Positions 21,099 to 52,709 of a stretch of DNA of 64,000 bases are shown in pieces (positions within the stretch are counted from its first letter, which is position 1; each line of letters opens with the position of its first letter). Origin of the DNA: Fibrobacter sp. (GTDB taxonomy: Bacteria; Fibrobacterota; Fibrobacteria; Fibrobacterales; Fibrobacteraceae). Where the stretch lies: assembly GCA_017412605.1 (NCBI GenBank), contig JAFPWY010000009.1:1-64000 (forward strand), written 5' to 3'. The translations under genes and the position numbers were made by a program. The notes beneath the pieces are model-generated. The model ran no database searches. It saw only the letters and a program-made list of their open reading frames with translations, and had not been told where the DNA came from.

Positions 21099-21665
21099 AT
21101 GGGAATCGTTGAAATCATCATCATCGCGATAGTCGAGGCAATGGACTGTTTCGCAGTTGCCATCGCCACGGGGCTTTCCAAGTCGGGCATCCCCTACAGT
21201 CGCGCCGCGCTCCAGGCCGTCAGTTTCGGCGTGTTCCAGGGCATGATGACGCTCTTCGGATACTTCCTCGGCAGTTTCGCAGAACGCTGGTTCAACGCCA
21301 TCGGATCGCCCATCGCCTGCACCATTCTCTGCATTTTAGGGGCGCGCATGATTTGGGGAGCCGTGTGCGGGAATTCCGGCGAAGAAGAAGGCGAAAAAAT
21401 TGCGGCCAAGAACCTGACCATCGTGAACATCCTGCTTTTGTCCGTCGCCACAAGCATCGATGCATTCGCAGTCGGCATATCGTTCGCCTTCGTGAACGCC
21501 AACATGGTTTTCGCCACGTCCGCCATCGCGGCAGCGAGCTTTATCATGGGGATCGTCGGCTACGAAGCCGGGCGCCATGCAGCCAAGCGCTTCAAGACGA
21601 AGATACCGGAAATCATCGCCGGCATCATCCTCATCGGCATCGGTGTCAAGATATTAGTGGCCTGA
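21099..21665 (+). CDS. mntP: Manganese efflux pump MntP
   Basis: 188 residues, six predicted membrane helices in two repeats, each with the conserved small-Asp motif (AMDCFAVAIATG and SIDAFAVGISFA). Length and motifs match the MntP (DUF204) family, which exports Mn2+ across the inner membrane. It starts 7 nt after the Aas-like gene. The stop region overlaps the 3' end of the convergent sigma54-activator gene by 12 bp. No yybP-ykoY riboswitch is expected or seen because the gene sits inside an operon. Confidence 0.9.
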   Translation: MGIVEIIIIAIVEAMDCFAVAIATGLSKSGIPYSRAALQAVSFGVFQGMMTLFGYFLGSFAERWFNAIGSPIACTILCILGARMIWGAVCGNSGEEEGEKIAAKNLTIVNILLLSVATSIDAFAVGISFAFVNANMVFATSAIAAASFIMGIVGYEAGRHAAKRFKTKIPEIIAGIILIGIGVKILVA

Positions 21666-23180
21666 CTTTATTCCAAGCTTGTTCATGCGGTAGTTCATCA
21701 TGCGCGGGGAAACTCCCAAATCGCGGCCTGCCGCAGAAAGGTTCCCGTTATTGCGCTTGATGGCCTCGGTAATGATTTCACGTTCGTAATTGTTCATCAT
21801 CACGTCGAGCGGAGCACTCTTCGCCCCGGATACGTCCACCGTACCCACGCTGAGGCTAGTCTGCAGTGACGGCGGCAAGTTGTAGCTGTGAACGCAGTCG
21901 TCGGTCGCAGTGAGCACCGCACGTTCCATGCAGTTCTCCAATTCACGCACGTTACCCGGCCAATGGTAGCTCATCAGCAGGTTGATAGCCGTCGTCGAAA
22001 GGCGCTGCACCTTCTTGCCGTAGCGGACATTCATCTTCTCGATAAAATGTTCCGCCAGCAAGATGATGTCGGACTTGCGCTTTGCCAAGTCGGGCATCGT
22101 GATGGGAAAAATGTTCAGGCGGTAGAAAAGGTCCTCGCGGAACTTTCCCTGCGCAATCAAATCTTCGAGGTTACGGCTCGTAGCAGCCAGGAAGCGCACA
22201 TCGGAATGCAGTTCCTCGTTGCTGCCCACACGGCTAAAGGTACGTTCCTGCAGGAATCGCAGGAGCTTGACCTGCGTCTGCATGGTCAAATCGCCAATTT
22301 CGTCCAGGAAAAGTGTGCCCCCGTCAGCAGCTTCGGCTCGGCCGATACGGCGGTTCACCGCACCCGTGAAGGCGCCCTTCTCATGACCGAAAAGTTCGCT
22401 TTCCACAAGGTTTTCAGGAAGCGCAGCACAGTTCAGCGTAATGAACGGCTTGTCCTTGCGAGCGGATAGGTTCACAATGGCACGGGCAATCATTTCCTTA
22501 CCCGTACCGCTACCACCGCGAATAAGTACGGTCGCATCGCTCGGGGCCACCTGGCGCACCTGCTCGTATATCATCTGCATTTCGCGGCAGTTGCCGACCA
22601 AGTCACCGGGGTTGTTCGAAAGCATGTCGCGGAGCTTGCGGTTTTCCTCGAGCATAGCCTCGCGCTCGTTATGCAGTTCGATGCATTCGTTCGCGGCATC
22701 GCCCGTGATATTTGCGATAATTTCTAGCAAGGCAACGTCACGATCCAGGTCCGTCGACCCGTCAACCGGGCGGTCAATCGAGAGCGTCCCGATAATCTGC
22801 TCGTCATGAATCAGGGGAACGCAGATGAACGCCACCTGCGATTCGTAATGGCGCGAGCCCGTACGGTTCAAAAAGCGGGAATCCTTGCGAAGGTCCGGAA
22901 TCACATGGCTGATACCGCGTTCGGCGACATGGCCCGTGATGCCCTCGCCCATGCGGTAAAAACCTTTCTGCTTTTCGGATTCGTCCAATCCACGGGAAGC
23001 TTCGATCTTGAGCGTATCACCAAAAAGGAGCGCGAAAGTGCCGCGCAACATTCCCAGTTCAGATTCCAAGATGCCAAGTACGTTTTCCAGCAATTTCTCC
23101 ACATTGCGTTCGTGGATAATCGCGACGCTAATCTTCTGAACCACTGAAATTTCTGGACCTATGGGAGATGGCATGTGCAT
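21654..23180 (-). CDS. Sigma54-dependent transcriptional activator, NifA-like (GAF-AAA+-Fis)
   Basis: 508 residues. GAF sensor domain about 15-165; AAA+ domain with Walker A GGSGTGKE (222-229), intact GAFTGA loop (269-274, contacts sigma54) and Walker B GTLFLDEIGDL (288-298); Fis-type helix-turn-helix at the end (NLSAAGRDLGVSPRMMNYRM). There is no response-regulator receiver, so it senses a small molecule or a partner rather than a kinase. It is the last gene of the leftward set dapF-dapL, 262 bp after dapL. A sigma54 promoter stands before dapF, so it may control its own operon. It is the only such activator in the window and the prime candidate for the sites before dapF, gltB and glnN. Confidence 0.92.
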   Translation of the reverse strand: MHMPSPIGPEISVVQKISVAIIHERNVEKLLENVLGILESELGMLRGTFALLFGDTLKIEASRGLDESEKQKGFYRMGEGITGHVAERGISHVIPDLRKDSRFLNRTGSRHYESQVAFICVPLIHDEQIIGTLSIDRPVDGSTDLDRDVALLEIIANITGDAANECIELHNEREAMLEENRKLRDMLSNNPGDLVGNCREMQMIYEQVRQVAPSDATVLIRGGSGTGKEMIARAIVNLSARKDKPFITLNCAALPENLVESELFGHEKGAFTGAVNRRIGRAEAADGGTLFLDEIGDLTMQTQVKLLRFLQERTFSRVGSNEELHSDVRFLAATSRNLEDLIAQGKFREDLFYRLNIFPITMPDLAKRKSDIILLAEHFIEKMNVRYGKKVQRLSTTAINLLMSYHWPGNVRELENCMERAVLTATDDCVHSYNLPPSLQTSLSVGTVDVSGAKSAPLDVMMNNYEREIITEAIKRNNGNLSAAGRDLGVSPRMMNYRMNKLGIKSGH

Positions 23181-23189
23181 AAGATAGTA

Positions 23190-23442
23190 AATAGGAGGTA
23201 GGGGTTGGAATTTAGGGGTTAGGATCTAAAGGTTAGAATCTAGGGGCTAGGATCTAGAGGCTAGGATCTAGAGGCTAGAATCTAGGGACTAGGGGTTAGG
23301 GAGAAATTTCACGGCTCCGCCGTCTGTTACTAACGCACGAAGTGCGTGAATCTTATTCACTAGCCTCAAGTCTCCCCCTAAGGGGCCATGCCCACATAAG
23401 TGCTGAAGCACTAAGTGGTCAAAGGTATTCTCTAGCCTCTTT
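23190..23442 (-). repeat. Intergenic inverted-minisatellite element A
   Basis: Degenerate short repeats of the type ggctaggatctaga fill 23205-23300. Small hairpins follow (ACGGC-TCC-GCCGT near 23312, ACGCAC-GAA-GTGCGT near 23335, AGTGCT-GA-AGCACT near 23400), then complementary ctagcctc units. The two arms can fold on each other. It lies between dapL and the activator gene; elements of the same design lie at 24652, 35197 and 42596. Confidence 0.7.
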
Positions 23443-24651: not shown

Positions 24652-24833
24652 AAGTTAGGGGTTTGGATCTAGAGACTAGAATCTAGGGGTTAATGGTTAG
24701 GAAAAGACGAGAGAAAGTAAACAGTGGTTAGGGGTTAGAATCTAGGGGCTAGGGAAAAATTTCACGGCTTCGCCGTCTTTTATTGACGCACAAAGTGCGT
24801 GATTCTTATTCTCTAGTCTCTAGCCTCTATTCT
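24652..24833 (-). repeat. Intergenic inverted-minisatellite element B
   Basis: Left arm units gatctagagactagaatctag; central hairpins CACGGC-TTC-GCCGT (about 24762-24776) and CGCAC-AAA-GTGCG (24785-24799); right arm with ctctagtctctagcctc units complementary to the left. The core closely matches element A, showing shared descent. Confidence 0.7.
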
Positions 24834-25706
24834 CTAGTCTCTCATTACAATCTCTCCTTTAAATACTTCTTGTGCGGGGCCAGTCATAAGGACGGGTCCG
24901 TCTTCCTCGTGCTTGATGTGGAGGACGCCTCCGTCCAGCACGATGTCGGCCTCGACGCCCACGCGGCCCGTTCTCTGGGCCGCAACGAGGGTTGCGCAGC
25001 TACCAGTGCCACAGGCCATGGTGACGCCGCAACCCCGTTCCCAGACCCGCATGCGGATCTGGGTGGGCGTCACCACCTGTGCAAACTCGATATTGCATCT
25101 GTCGGGGAACTGCTTGTCGACCTCCAGAATGCTCCCCCACTTTTCCAGCTGGATCTTCTCGATGTCATCGACAAAGATGACCGCATGCGGGTTGCCCATC
25201 GAGACCGTCTCGGCAGTAAAGTCGTAGCTATCGGCGGTGAGCTTGATGGAGCCGAGGAAATTCCTGGGGAGCCCCATATCCACGCACACGCGACCGTCTT
25301 CCAAAAGAGCCGGTTTCACGAGCCCGCTCTTCGTATGCAGATTGAAAACCTTGGTGTCGGCCGACTTGGCAAGCCCGCGGCTGACGATGAACTTTGCCAC
25401 GCAGCGCGTCGCATTCCCGCACATAGCCGCCTCGGATCCGTCGGCATTGAAAATGCGCATCTCGAAATCGACGCCATTCGCGACCGCCTTGGACGCAGGT
25501 CCCACTCCGGCCTTGTCCAAGACCAGGCACCCATCGCCATCCATCGGAGTCACGATGACCACGCCATCGGCTCCAATACCGAACCGCCTGTCGCAAAGGC
25601 GGATAACATTTTCCGTAAAGCCCTTACCAAAATCGGGAGTCTGACCAGGCTCCAGGAGCACAAAGTCATTACCCAGACCGGTCCATTTTGAAAATTTCAT
25701 AGGCAT
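24834..25706 (-). CDS. dapF: Diaminopimelate epimerase
   Basis: 290 residues. Converts LL- to meso-diaminopimelate without a cofactor, using two cysteines; both are in place: MCGNATRC (first Cys) and ACGTGSCA (second Cys). The N-terminus KFSKWTGLGNDFVLL is typical. ATG 25706 and ATG 25700 are both possible. First gene of the leftward dapF-dapL-activator set. A sigma54 promoter (25740-25756) and paired inverted repeats (25832-25877) lie directly upstream, so expression should depend on a sigma54 activator. Confidence 0.95.
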   Translation of the reverse strand: MPMKFSKWTGLGNDFVLLEPGQTPDFGKGFTENVIRLCDRRFGIGADGVVIVTPMDGDGCLVLDKAGVGPASKAVANGVDFEMRIFNADGSEAAMCGNATRCVAKFIVSRGLAKSADTKVFNLHTKSGLVKPALLEDGRVCVDMGLPRNFLGSIKLTADSYDFTAETVSMGNPHAVIFVDDIEKIQLEKWGSILEVDKQFPDRCNIEFAQVVTPTQIRMRVWERGCGVTMACGTGSCATLVAAQRTGRVGVEADIVLDGGVLHIKHEEDGPVLMTGPAQEVFKGEIVMRD

Positions 25707-25739
25707 TTTTCTCGCTATGCTTAAATTTGTCTTTTAACT

Positions 25740-25756
25740 AGCAAAGAATATGCCAA
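25740..25756 (-). promoter_or_regulatory. Sigma54 (-24/-12) promoter of dapF
   Basis: On the minus strand TTGGCATATTCTTTGCT: GG and GC separated by exactly 10 nt. One mismatch to the TTGGCACG-N4-TTGCW consensus (T for C in the -24 block). Predicted start about 25729, 23 nt before the first dapF ATG. Confidence 0.8.
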
Positions 25757-25831
25757 TTTTACAGAAAATGTTAAACTAGCCCAAAAACGCCATTTTTATC
25801 AAATATTCACCAATTAAGCCAGTATTTTACT

Positions 25832-25877
25832 TTACATTTTATGTAAAACAAAAGCCTAGTTTTTACATAAAATGTAA
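25832..25877. promoter_or_regulatory. Paired activator sites upstream of dapF
   Basis: Two perfect TTACA-N5-TGTAA inverted repeats at 25832-25846 and 25863-25877, centres 31 bp apart, about 110 and 141 bp upstream of the predicted sigma54 start. They fall between the dapF promoter and the stop of the preceding lipoprotein gene. The same arrangement occurs before gltB. Inferred enhancer for a sigma54 activator. Confidence 0.75.
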
Positions 25878-44511: not shown

Positions 44512-46443
44512 TCACCTCGACCAATCGTCAAACGAAGCGTCACTGGGCATGCGCCAATCGGCACGCGGGGACAGCGAGATGGTTCCCACCTTCGGGCCAT
44601 CCGGGATGCAACTACGCTTGAACTGTTGCGTAAAGAAACGACGCACGAAAACGGCAAGAGCCTTTTCCAATTCCCCGTCAGTGAATCGGCCTGCAAAGGC
44701 ATACTTGGCGAGGAACAGGAGCTTTTGAGGCGGAGCACCGTATTTCACGAAATGGTACAGGAAGAAATCGTGAATTTCGTAGGCACCCAGGATGCTCTCG
44801 GTCTTTTGCGCAATTTGTCCGTTGGGAGCGGCAGGCAAAAGTTCCGGAGAAACCGGAGTGTCCAAAATATCCTTGAGCACAGTCCTAAGCGCAGCATCGG
44901 AACGGCCTGCATACCAATCCACAATATGGCGCACGAGCGTCTTGGGGACATCGCAGTTGACAGCGTACATCGACATGTGATCGGCATTGTAAGTGCTCCA
45001 CCCGAGCGCAATTTCGGAGAGGTCTCCCGTGCCAATAACAATTCCGCCCTCGCTGTTCGCGACATCCATCAGTATTTGGGTGCGTTCCCTAGCCTGGACG
45101 TTTTCGTAAGTCACGTTAAAAACCTTCGGATCGTGCCCAATATCGGCAAAATGCAATTGACAGGCATTGCGGATATCGACCGTTCTGAGTTCCACGCCCA
45201 AAAGTTCCGCAAGTACCACCGCATTATTCTTTGTACGCCTCGTGGTTCCAAACCCGGGCATCGTGAGCGCAAGGATTTCGTTGGCAGGGCGCTTGAGCAA
45301 CTTGAACGTTTCCGCGACAACGAGCAAAGCCAAGGTCGAATCGAGGCCGCCAGAAAGTCCGATGACGGCACGCTTACTATGTGACGCCTCGAGACGCTTT
45401 GCAAGCCCTGCGCACTGGATGTTGAAAATCTCGGTGCAGGATAGATCCCTAGTCTCAAGGTTTCCCGGCACAAAAGGCGCCGGCGAGACAAAGCGGAACT
45501 TGAGCGATTCAACCGGACGTAAATTTTCAATCGTGGCGGCACGGGCATAGACCTCCCGGCCGTCAAAGTCCTGGAAGGAACCTTCGCTTAGACGCTGCAT
45601 GTTCAGTCGATCGGCATCGACATCGGCATAAATAATTTCTGTTTCGCGGGAAAACGGCTTGTTTTCGGCCAGCATGCTACCATTTTCGGCAATCATCAAA
45701 TGGCCGCTAAAAACCATATCCGTCGTCGATTCATGTACGCCAGCCGAAGAATACACGTAGGCAGCCATGCAGCGTGCCGACTGGTTCAGCACCAGGTTAC
45801 GTCGGTAATCCTGCTTGCCCACCAACGCATCGCTCGCGGAAAGGTTTACAATGACATTGGCCCCGGCAAAAGCAAGCTCGCCGCTAGGCGGCGCCGGAGT
45901 CCACAAATCTTCGCAAAGTTCCACGCCCACGCGGACCTCGGAACCAGAACCTTTCACCGTAATAAAATTCGTCACCGGGACATCGCCCGCCCCTTCGATA
46001 CAGCAAAGGACCGGATGCCCGTCAGCACCGCCCCGCAACAAGTCTCGGCCACTCGAAAAATGGCGTTTTTCGTAGAACTCGCGCTGGTTCGGCAAATGAA
46101 TCTTGGGCGTTACCGCAACCACCTTGCCTCGCTGCAAAAAAGCGGCACAATTATAAAGACGGCCAAACATCCGAAGCGGAAGCCCTACGGCAATAACCGC
46201 GTCCGACTCTTCGAACGCCTTTGCGATTTTCAGTAGCGAATCCAAGCTATTCCTGAGCAAAAGTTCCTGATGGAACAAATCGCTGCAAGTGTATCCCGTA
46301 ATGCTGAGTTCAGGGAACACGACAAAAGCCGCCCCGTTGGAAACAGCGGCAGCGGCACTTTTAATAATCTCTTCGGTATTGTAGGCGGTATCGGCCACCC
46401 GCAAACGCGGAGAGACACACGCAAAACGATAAAATCCAAACAT
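44512..46443 (-). CDS. nadE: Glutamine-dependent NAD+ synthetase
   Basis: 643 residues, two domains. N-terminal nitrilase-type glutaminase with Glu (FPELSITGY), Lys (TPKIHLPN) and Cys (GVELCEDLW). C-terminal synthetase with the ATP loop GLSGGLDSTLALLV, plus GTGDLSEIALGWSTYNADHMSMY. Converts deamido-NAD to NAD with glutamine nitrogen. It starts 12 nt after the gltD stop, so it should share the gltB sigma54 promoter, tying NAD formation to glutamine/glutamate supply. Confidence 0.95.
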   Translation of the reverse strand: MFGFYRFACVSPRLRVADTAYNTEEIIKSAAAAVSNGAAFVVFPELSITGYTCSDLFHQELLLRNSLDSLLKIAKAFEESDAVIAVGLPLRMFGRLYNCAAFLQRGKVVAVTPKIHLPNQREFYEKRHFSSGRDLLRGGADGHPVLCCIEGAGDVPVTNFITVKGSGSEVRVGVELCEDLWTPAPPSGELAFAGANVIVNLSASDALVGKQDYRRNLVLNQSARCMAAYVYSSAGVHESTTDMVFSGHLMIAENGSMLAENKPFSRETEIIYADVDADRLNMQRLSEGSFQDFDGREVYARAATIENLRPVESLKFRFVSPAPFVPGNLETRDLSCTEIFNIQCAGLAKRLEASHSKRAVIGLSGGLDSTLALLVVAETFKLLKRPANEILALTMPGFGTTRRTKNNAVVLAELLGVELRTVDIRNACQLHFADIGHDPKVFNVTYENVQARERTQILMDVANSEGGIVIGTGDLSEIALGWSTYNADHMSMYAVNCDVPKTLVRHIVDWYAGRSDAALRTVLKDILDTPVSPELLPAAPNGQIAQKTESILGAYEIHDFFLYHFVKYGAPPQKLLFLAKYAFAGRFTDGELEKALAVFVRRFFTQQFKRSCIPDGPKVGTISLSPRADWRMPSDASFDDWSR

Positions 46444-50800: not shown

Positions 50801-52243
50801 ATCGTTACCCATGGAGCCAATCGGCTCGGCACCGTTCTTGGCCATCGGCTGCAAGATGATGGAAAGGTCTTCGGCAGAATAGCCAAAGCGTTTCTGCTGC
50901 ACCAGGATGTCTTCCGGGACATCGGACGGGTTGATTTCGCTGAAGAGGCCGCGGACGCTCATCTTGTTCTCGGCAACCCAGCGGCGGTAAGGCTTGGCTC
51001 TCGCCACCTGCGCCTTCATTTCGGCGTTCTTCAAGATACGGTGGTTTTCGAGGTCGAGGTAGATGATCTCGCCGGGTTTGAGGCGGCCCTTTTCTTCCAC
51101 CTCGTCATCGCGGAGGTCGAGCACACCCGTTTCGGAGGCCATCACGAAAAGACCGTCTTTACATAAAGTGTAACGTGCCGGACGGAGGCCGTTGCGGTCG
51201 AGGATCGCACCCGCATTCACGCCATCGCTGAACGCCACGGCGGCAGGGCCATCCCACGGTTCCATAAGCATGGATTCGTATTCGAAGAAGCCACGCACGT
51301 CGCGGCCGAGGTAATGCTTCTTGCCCCAGGCCTGCGGCATGAGCATCATCATCGCATGCGGGAGGCTACGACCTGCTGCGACGAGGAGCTCAAACATATT
51401 GTCCAAGCTGGCGGAGTCGCTCTGGCCCGGCATCACGAGCGGAAGGAGTTTCGGCATGTCATCGCCGATAATCCCGCTCTTCAGGTACGGCTCGCGGGCG
51501 CGGAGGCTGTTCAGGTTACCACGTAGCGTGTTGATTTCGCCGTTGTGCGCAAGGTAGCGGAACGGGTGCGCAAGCTGCCAGGTCGGGAATGTGTTGGTAG
51601 AGTAGCGCTGGTGAACAAGGGCAAGCGGGCTTTCAAAGTCAAGGTCGTTCAAATCCTTATAGAAGCCTTCAATCTGGCTTGCCAGCAACAGACCCTTATA
51701 AACAATGCTACGGCGGCTGCAGCTGCAGACATAGACACCCTTGCAAGCCTTCTCGATCAGGCGGCGGATCACGTAAAGCTTGATGTCGAAAGCGGAATCG
51801 TTTTCAAACTTGGAACCGTCGAAGAATGCCTGGCGGATATGCGGCAAGGTTTCGCGGGCAGTGCGGCCGATAGAAGAGGAATCGACGGGAACCTCGCGGA
51901 AGTTCACGACAGGAACACCCTCGGATTCGGCGATGCGCTTGATTTCCGCATCGAAGGCTGTCGCCTCGAGCGTATTCTCGACGAAGAACATAGCCACGCC
52001 ATAGCGTTCCGGCAAATCCACACAAACCTTGCGGAAGAACTTGTGTGGCATAGAAAGCAAAAGACCCGCACCGTCACCGGTTTCCGGGTCTCCACCTGCT
52101 GCGCCACGATGCATCAGCCTCTTAAGGACAGTAATGCCCTGCAGCACAATCTGGTGCGAGGCGATATTATTTACATTGGCAACAAGACCGACACCGCAGG
52201 CGTCATGTTCGTTGGCCGGATCGTAAAGAGCTTGAGCGTGCAT
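47825..52243 (-). CDS. gltB: Glutamate synthase large subunit
   Basis: 1472 residues from ATG 52243 (AAGGA 6 nt upstream); a frame extension to 52282 lacks a ribosome site. Short propeptide, then the catalytic Cys of the class II glutaminase (HDACGVGLVANVNN, Cys at about 16). Central domain, FMN barrel (GEGGEDPDR, GGTGASPLTSIKHAG), 3Fe-4S cysteines (CVMDRKCHTNQCPMG), C-terminal glycine-rich beta-helix (GYGGTSGKIFINGLAGERFG). Makes glutamate from glutamine and 2-oxoglutarate. First gene of gltB-gltD-nadE, driven by a consensus sigma54 promoter. Confidence 0.97.
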   Translation of the reverse strand: MHAQALYDPANEHDACGVGLVANVNNIASHQIVLQGITVLKRLMHRGAAGGDPETGDGAGLLLSMPHKFFRKVCVDLPERYGVAMFFVENTLEATAFDAEIKRIAESEGVPVVNFREVPVDSSSIGRTARETLPHIRQAFFDGSKFENDSAFDIKLYVIRRLIEKACKGVYVCSCSRRSIVYKGLLLASQIEGFYKDLNDLDFESPLALVHQRYSTNTFPTWQLAHPFRYLAHNGEINTLRGNLNSLRAREPYLKSGIIGDDMPKLLPLVMPGQSDSASLDNMFELLVAAGRSLPHAMMMLMPQAWGKKHYLGRDVRGFFEYESMLMEPWDGPAAVAFSDGVNAGAILDRNGLRPARYTLCKDGLFVMASETGVLDLRDDEVEEKGRLKPGEIIYLDLENHRILKNAEMKAQVARAKPYRRWVAENKMSVRGLFSEINPSDVPEDILVQQKRFGYSAEDLSIILQPMAKNGAEPIGSMGNDAALAVLSDKPQPLFNYFKQLFAQVTNPPIDPIREELVMSLTTYIGNHGNILEETPEQAHLIKIPRPIVTEDEIRRFENIGDKAFKAKVLKMQFPLGGNGEVLEAALQNLAGDAVRAVNDKYDIIVLSDKNIDWGYVPIPSLLATASVNRALVEAGVRPEIGLIVQSGEVREVMHFALLLGFGATVINPYLAFETITNMCHTGDLDVDPVTAAANYVKAVDKGLLKIMSKMGISTLRSYRSAQIFEAVGLNHELVEKFLPGTASRIEGIGLEEIACEVNDRQKIAFADASRVLQSGGQYAFRKEGEKHLWTPQSLAAFRQAVQGSDYEKFKVYSKLINDQSERQATLRGLFKFKETTPIDISEVESRESILKHFVAGAMSLGSLSPEAHETIAIAMNRIGAMSNCGEGGEDPDRDTPAANGDIRSSAIRQVASGRFGVTIDYLRHAKDLQIKMAQGAKPGEGGQLPAHKVNEFVARIRHSIPNVSLISPPPHHDIYSIEDLAQLIYDLRNSNPKARVSVKLVSEVGVGTIAAGVAKAHADVVLISGHDGGTGASPLTSIKHAGLPWELGIAEAEQTLVLNDLRGRIKLQVDGQLKTGRDIVVAALLGAEEFGFATNLLVSLGCVMDRKCHTNQCPMGIATQDAAYRKRFAGKPEYVENFLFFIADEVREILASLGLHSLEEACGRSDLLEKDSAIEFYKAKHLDFSKIFQTVEGGVKSFDKNYVKEALENFDRREILPFVSDSLKSGAPVELCTVVHNTDRTVGTELSGEVDEHFGVKGLPEDTIKIHLQGVAGQSFGAFLAPGVTLDLEGEANDFMGKGLSGGKIIVRPPHNASFKAEENVIAGNVIGYGGTSGKIFINGLAGERFGIRNSGMLLVSEGVGDHGCEYMTGGRVVVLGRVGVNFAAGMTGGFAYVYDETGHFDLSCNVDSADLESVLPGTESEKELMDIIQQHVDATGSEKGKRILENWNCERPKFVKIFPIDYRNALAKKG

Positions 52244-52302: not shown

Positions 52303-52319
52303 TGCAAAATCCGTGCCAA
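52303..52319 (-). promoter_or_regulatory. Sigma54 promoter of gltB
   Basis: On the minus strand TTGGCACGGATTTTGCA, a full match to TTGGCACG-N4-TTGCA, with GG-N10-GC. Predicted start about 52292, about 49 nt before the gltB ATG. Confidence 0.9.
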
Positions 52320-52404: not shown

Positions 52405-52449
52405 TTACAAATTATGTAACAACAATGACAAAAATTACAATTAATGTAA
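52405..52449. promoter_or_regulatory. Paired activator sites upstream of gltB
   Basis: Two perfect TTACA-N5-TGTAA inverted repeats at 52405-52419 and 52435-52449, centres 30 bp apart, about 120 and 150 bp upstream of the predicted gltB start. Same spacing and distance as the pair before dapF. Confidence 0.78.
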
Positions 52450-52559: not shown

Positions 52560-52603
52560 TTACACAATCCGTAACCTTTTTTGAATTTTTTCATTTTCTG
52601 TAA
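52560..52603. promoter_or_regulatory. Degenerate paired activator sites upstream of glnN
   Basis: TTACA-N5-CGTAA at 52560-52574 and TTTCA-N5-TGTAA at 52589-52603, each one base off the dapF/gltB sites, centres 29 bp apart, about 153 and 124 bp upstream of the predicted glnN start. Position and spacing agree with the perfect pairs. Confidence 0.6.
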
Positions 52604-52692: not shown

Positions 52693-52709
52693 TTGGCACA
52701 CTTTTTGCA
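52693..52709 (+). promoter_or_regulatory. Sigma54 promoter of glnN
   Basis: TTGGCACACTTTTTGCA: GG-N10-GC with both consensus blocks. Predicted start about 52720, 29 nt before the ATG. Confidence 0.9.

Follow-up and report, generated by a model that had tools for sequence, protein, structure and literature searches.

The dapF gene of this Fibrobacter genome is preceded by a sigma54 promoter and a set of palindromic sites, which are probably the enhancer-promoter of an autoregulated nitrogen-regulator operon, dapF-dapL-EBP, encoding a NifA-like activator whose output would be limited by a weak proximal site. The window covers the first 64 kb of contig C9, in a genome of 3.53 Mb assembled in 15 contigs. 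Its nearest dapF relatives are found in Fibrobacter metagenome-assembled genomes (MAGs). The genome contains a sigma54 gene as well as about seven EBP genes.

The dapF promoter module

The elements upstream of dapF are as follows.
25740-25756, minus strand: sigma54 -24/-12 promoter, TTGGCATATTCTTTGCT, a perfect match to TTGGCA-N6-TTGCW, with an implied transcription start site (TSS) at about 25729
25759-25773, minus strand: third palindrome, TAACATTTTCTGTAA, TAACA-N5-TGTAA with one mismatch, centred at -37, 2 bp before the sigma54 site and abutting the -24 box
25832-25846, minus strand: enhancer site 2, TTACATTTTATGTAA, a perfect TTACA-N5-TGTAA palindrome centred at -110
25863-25877, minus strand: enhancer site 1, TTACATAAAATGTAA, a perfect TTACA-N5-TGTAA palindrome centred at -141

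The sigma54 site and the two perfect palindromes, about 110 and 141 bp upstream and 31 bp apart from start to start, are where the original prediction had placed them; the third, imperfect palindrome had been overlooked. The TSS was set by placing the GC of the second promoter element at -13/-12, which puts the dapF ATG at +23. The promoter has the GG and GC of the TGGCA-N6-TTGCW consensus, invariant and correctly spaced, and the two distal sites lie, in a conserved manner, within the 80-200 bp from the TSS at which activator sites are normally found. Genome-wide, the dapF promoter is one of 18 sigma54 sites without mismatch, and nine perfect TTACA-N5-TGTAA palindromes were counted versus three for a reversed control. 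A sigma70 promoter for dapF was also considered and rejected, as the promoter-like sites returned by the scan were no commoner than in shuffled sequences.

Conservation across Fibrobacter had been proposed as a check of the original prediction, and both the sites and the promoter are kept. Of 75 loci from Fibrobacter and its close relatives whose dapF is at least 60% identical, 74 have the module upstream of the gene, in a near-fixed geometry; among loci of 71-98% identity, it is missing at L065 only. The GG, GC and TTGC of the sigma54 site are invariant in 50 deduplicated relatives. Among 58 deduplicated promoters having a sigma54 site, the distal pair is spaced by 31 bp in 51 and by 30 bp in seven, and in 57 of them the proximal palindrome, usually with its mismatch retained, stands at -17 with respect to the sigma54 site. 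At the dapF loci of relatives, the palindrome arms are fixed and the five bases between them are free to vary, which fits a protein binding site rather than general sequence identity. By analogy, the imperfect palindrome at -37 is a possible low-affinity limiting site. The distances of the distal pair in the deduplicated promoters cluster at 79, 88-92, 98-102 and 109 bp (R 0.72 at 10.5 bp); with p of about 0.01 on distinct values and a broad peak, this is only suggestive of helical phasing.

Both the palindrome and its core are rich in A and T, as is the intergenic DNA in which chance matches might arise. However, 63 of 80 Fibrobacter genomes have the paired sites, mostly as one pair per genome, usually that of dapF, and none has a match to the reversed-pattern control. 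Together with the strict conservation, this makes a chance origin, already judged unlikely in the original prediction, extremely improbable.

The dapF-dapL-EBP block and its regulator

The module heads a block of three genes on the same strand.
24834-25706, minus strand: dapF, diaminopimelate epimerase (TIGR00652, 272 bits, cut-off 114.65), the sole match in this genome
23443-24651, minus strand: dapL, LL-diaminopimelate aminotransferase (TIGR03542, 637 bits, cut-off 364.7)
21654-23180, minus strand: EBP, a NifA-like enhancer-binding protein of 508 residues with GAF, sigma54 AAA+ and Fis-type HTH domains (Pfam GAF, Sigma54_activat, HTH_8), the last gene of the block

In all 42 loci where the three genes could be read, they are adjacent and co-directional, with gaps of 2 to 267 bp between dapF and dapL and of -1 to 243 bp between dapL and EBP. 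The block is thus an apparent operon, read from gene order and gaps, with cotranscription and EBP binding being predicted. In this genome cotranscription is uncertain, because the gaps of 182 bp (dapF-dapL, 24652-24833) and 262 bp (dapL-EBP, 23181-23442) are filled with repeats and hairpins: both contain a CTAG-rich 14-bp repeat array and a common 105-nt unit with two hairpins.

Two genomes with a different arrangement are informative. The dapL-EBP gap is devoid of a sigma54 site in 41 of the 42 loci, the exception being G105, where a full second module (pair, abutting site and sigma54 site) directly precedes the EBP gene, and where the dapF pair has decayed to one mismatch per site. This points to the regulator as a principal target. 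In a sister genus (G004, which carries locus L065), the gene order is gltB-gltD-dapF-dapL-EBP and a sigma54 site precedes gltB. L065 therefore has no dapF promoter of its own since the block follows gltB-gltD, an order that independently links the block to ammonium assimilation.

With the domain order GAF, Sigma54_activat, HTH_8, EBP has the architecture of a NifA-like protein, and full-length NifA (9qq6) is the best match to it in the PDB. The best NCBIfam model for EBP is TIGR01817, at 458.1 bits versus an equivalog cut-off of 528.85, so that it does not qualify as a NifA equivalog. Nor is it NtrC: it has GAF in place of the receiver domain and scores 318 versus 558.6 bits. Genera that have the sites retain its recognition helix, SPRMMNYRMNKLG; the helix differs in g10, where no excess of sites is seen. 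EBP is hence the best candidate binder and a probable activator, being in the operon and NifA-like throughout, with a helix that tracks the sites.

The joint absence of EBP and palindromes from several genomes (G053, G073, G076, G084, G090 and others) was rejected as proof that the sites belong to EBP, because the same genomes are also without dapF and mostly without glnK. In several species the sites form a cluster with dapF and glnK, and the co-absence would then be explained by MAG segments that are missing or by a single linked loss. In G053 and some eight further genomes assigned to Fibrobacter, neither a DAP epimerase nor an EBP orthologue was found, and in most of them no glnK either, even though one is rated 99% complete; this may reflect either a missing assembly segment or a real loss.

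Other genes with the module

The original prediction had reported the same module at gltB, about 26 kb away. It is indeed present, 26.6 kb from that of dapF, and sites are also found before the divergent glnN.
52303-52319, minus strand: gltB sigma54 promoter (sigma54 site search)
52405-52449, minus strand: gltB paired palindromes, starting at 52405 and 52435, centred at -120 and -150
52560-52603, plus strand: two one-mismatch palindromes upstream of glnN, centred at -153 and -124
52693-52709, plus strand: sigma54 promoter of glnN (sigma54 site search)

The other perfect palindromes of this genome are located in the gltB/glnN intergenic region, before glnK-amtB, before purF, inside gltB, and at one more position on contig C13. 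The one before purF has no clear sigma54 site and makes a weaker module. The one inside gltB, at 51159, was rejected as a regulatory site as it codes for RYTLCKDG. Relatives also have pairs, accompanied by sigma54 sites, before pyrG (CTP synthase) and purF. The sigma54 promoters of glnN and glnK are conserved, with palindromes that are often weaker; they are kept even in species where recognisable palindromes are weak or missing, which counts against the mechanism proposed below. A glutamine-type NAD synthetase gene (NAD_synthase and CN_hydrolase domains; 44512-46443) lies directly 3' of gltB-gltD and may share their operon. In four pyrG promoters (L159, L160, L155, L163), a palindrome is found near +14 to +23, possibly a repressor-like position.

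The characterised targets are ammonium-assimilation or glutamine-using enzymes, plus dapF-dapL. The common sites at gltBD, glnN and glnK-amtB are those expected of an Ntr-type regulon, and a nitrogen link is supported by the presence of the module at these genes and at pyrG and purF. The suggestion that sigma54 ties diaminopimelate synthesis to nitrogen status thus stands in part: the promoter and its paired enhancer are conserved and nitrogen genes carry the module, but dapF is not an isolated target, since it heads dapF-dapL-EBP.

Proposed mechanism, alternatives and other sigma54 sites

The module closely resembles that of E. coli glnAp2, whose strong NtrC sites lie at -140/-108 when the same TSS rule is applied to K-12. 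Both glnALG and the dapF block have a sigma54 promoter and 5-N5-5 palindromes, with two strong distal sites and weaker proximal ones; the gene of NtrC is inside its own operon, and so would be that of EBP, the predicted activator. At glnAp2, activation is exerted from the two strong sites, a capping of transcription has been proposed for the weaker sites downstream, and NtrC is a product of the operon (PMC3870243). The distal pair of dapF would, by analogy, be the enhancer and the -37 site a limiter, and the operon would supply its own activator. The two systems differ in the site (TTACA-N5-TGTAA versus GCACY-N5-RGTGC for E. coli NtrC), in the N-terminus of the activator (GAF versus receiver domain) and in the metabolic genes (dapF-dapL versus glnA), and the Fibrobacter block has no ntrB partner. 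EBP shares the GAF-AAA+-Fis architecture of NifA; unlike for NifA, no nif genes were seen among the targets of its module. The Fibrobacter site also differs from the NifA UAS, TGT-N10-ACA.

In the mechanism that we propose, EBP would bind the distal pair and loop to the sigma54 holoenzyme at -24/-12, switching on transcription when nitrogen is short. The activated operon would make more EBP in addition to DapF and DapL, and DapL would use up glutamate, which the co-regulated gltBD produces. When EBP is abundant, occupancy of the weaker -37 site would limit output. From the same sites, EBP would also drive gltBD, glnN, glnK-amtB, pyrG and purF. Judging from known NifA proteins, the signal could be 2-oxoglutarate, sensed via GAF, or PII/GlnK, or both.

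Since the promoter heads a conserved block ending in the gene of the probable activator, autoregulation of a nitrogen regulator is no less likely to be its purpose than diaminopimelate supply. A module that serves to tie DAP and lysine precursor supply to nitrogen status, with the downstream regulator incidental, seems unlikely. It would agree with dapF and dapL being adjacent pathway steps, found side by side with the module in all Fibrobacter relatives, with the remaining targets being glutamate or glutamine enzymes, and with dapF-dapL lying directly 3' of gltBD in the sister genus, but it leaves unexplained why the third gene is always EBP and why G105 has its strong pair before EBP and a decayed one before dapF.

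The paralogue EBP2 (G000, contig C13) lacks GAF and is encoded beside a second glnN; its HTH is identical to that of EBP at 28 of 39 positions, with a near-identical recognition helix, SPRMMHYKVKRLG. Given such similar helices, both proteins could bind the sites jointly. Binding mainly by EBP2, or by EBP and EBP2 together, is nevertheless improbable: neither a palindrome nor a sigma54 site was found near the EBP2-glnN2 locus (L221, C13:105500-109500 in this genome), and genomes with EBP2 and without EBP mostly show no palindrome excess, although they are also without the linked target genes. Assigning the palindromes to a repressor or another non-sigma54 regulator, with a different activator serving the promoter, would suit the third site, adjacent to the -24 box, and the site near +14 in several pyrG promoters, both repressor-like positions. 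We consider this very improbable, as a pair at about -110/-141 with an invariant spacing of 30-31 bp has the geometry of an enhancer, nearly identical to that of glnAp2.

The autoregulated NifA-like operon, which we favour, predicts a nitrogen regulon, an operator (TTACA-N5-TGTAA pairs 31 bp apart) and a probable activator for the phylum of Fibrobacter, a key rumen cellulose degrader; no description of nitrogen regulation in this phylum was found in the literature searched. It would also illustrate clearly how the glnAp2 architecture can serve another type of activator, with DAP-synthesis genes replacing glnA. A stronger claim, which we hold only tentatively and think rather doubtful, is that the sole dapF, an essential step to a cell-wall precursor, is under obligate control by sigma54 and the nitrogen regulator, inside the self-amplifying operon of the latter. 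If so, peptidoglycan and lysine supply would rise together with the nitrogen response, and sigma54, possibly also EBP, would be essential.

Literature searches on sigma54 or nitrogen control in Fibrobacter and on sigma54 control of dapF returned nothing relevant, and the text of a study of Bacteroidota sigma54 regulons (PMC12316311) makes no mention of Fibrobacter, diaminopimelate or glutamate synthase. The parts are of known kinds; their combination (a receiver-less activator, a new site, and DAP-synthesis genes in the operon of the regulator) was not found in the literature searched.

Perfect sigma54 sites were also observed before genes resembling dnaK, groES(-groEL) and a small heat-shock protein gene (L011, L020 and L026; C1:278909, C9:231282 and C15:108291 in this genome). 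Bacteroidota use sigma54 at groES/grpE-type chaperone genes (PMC12316311), a use comparable to the Fibrobacter dnaK and groES sites, and by analogy sigma54 may drive heat-shock genes here, as reported for some Bacteroidota genes. Another perfect sigma54 site (L023; C11:373124) immediately precedes a gene resembling a sigma-70-family RNA polymerase factor.
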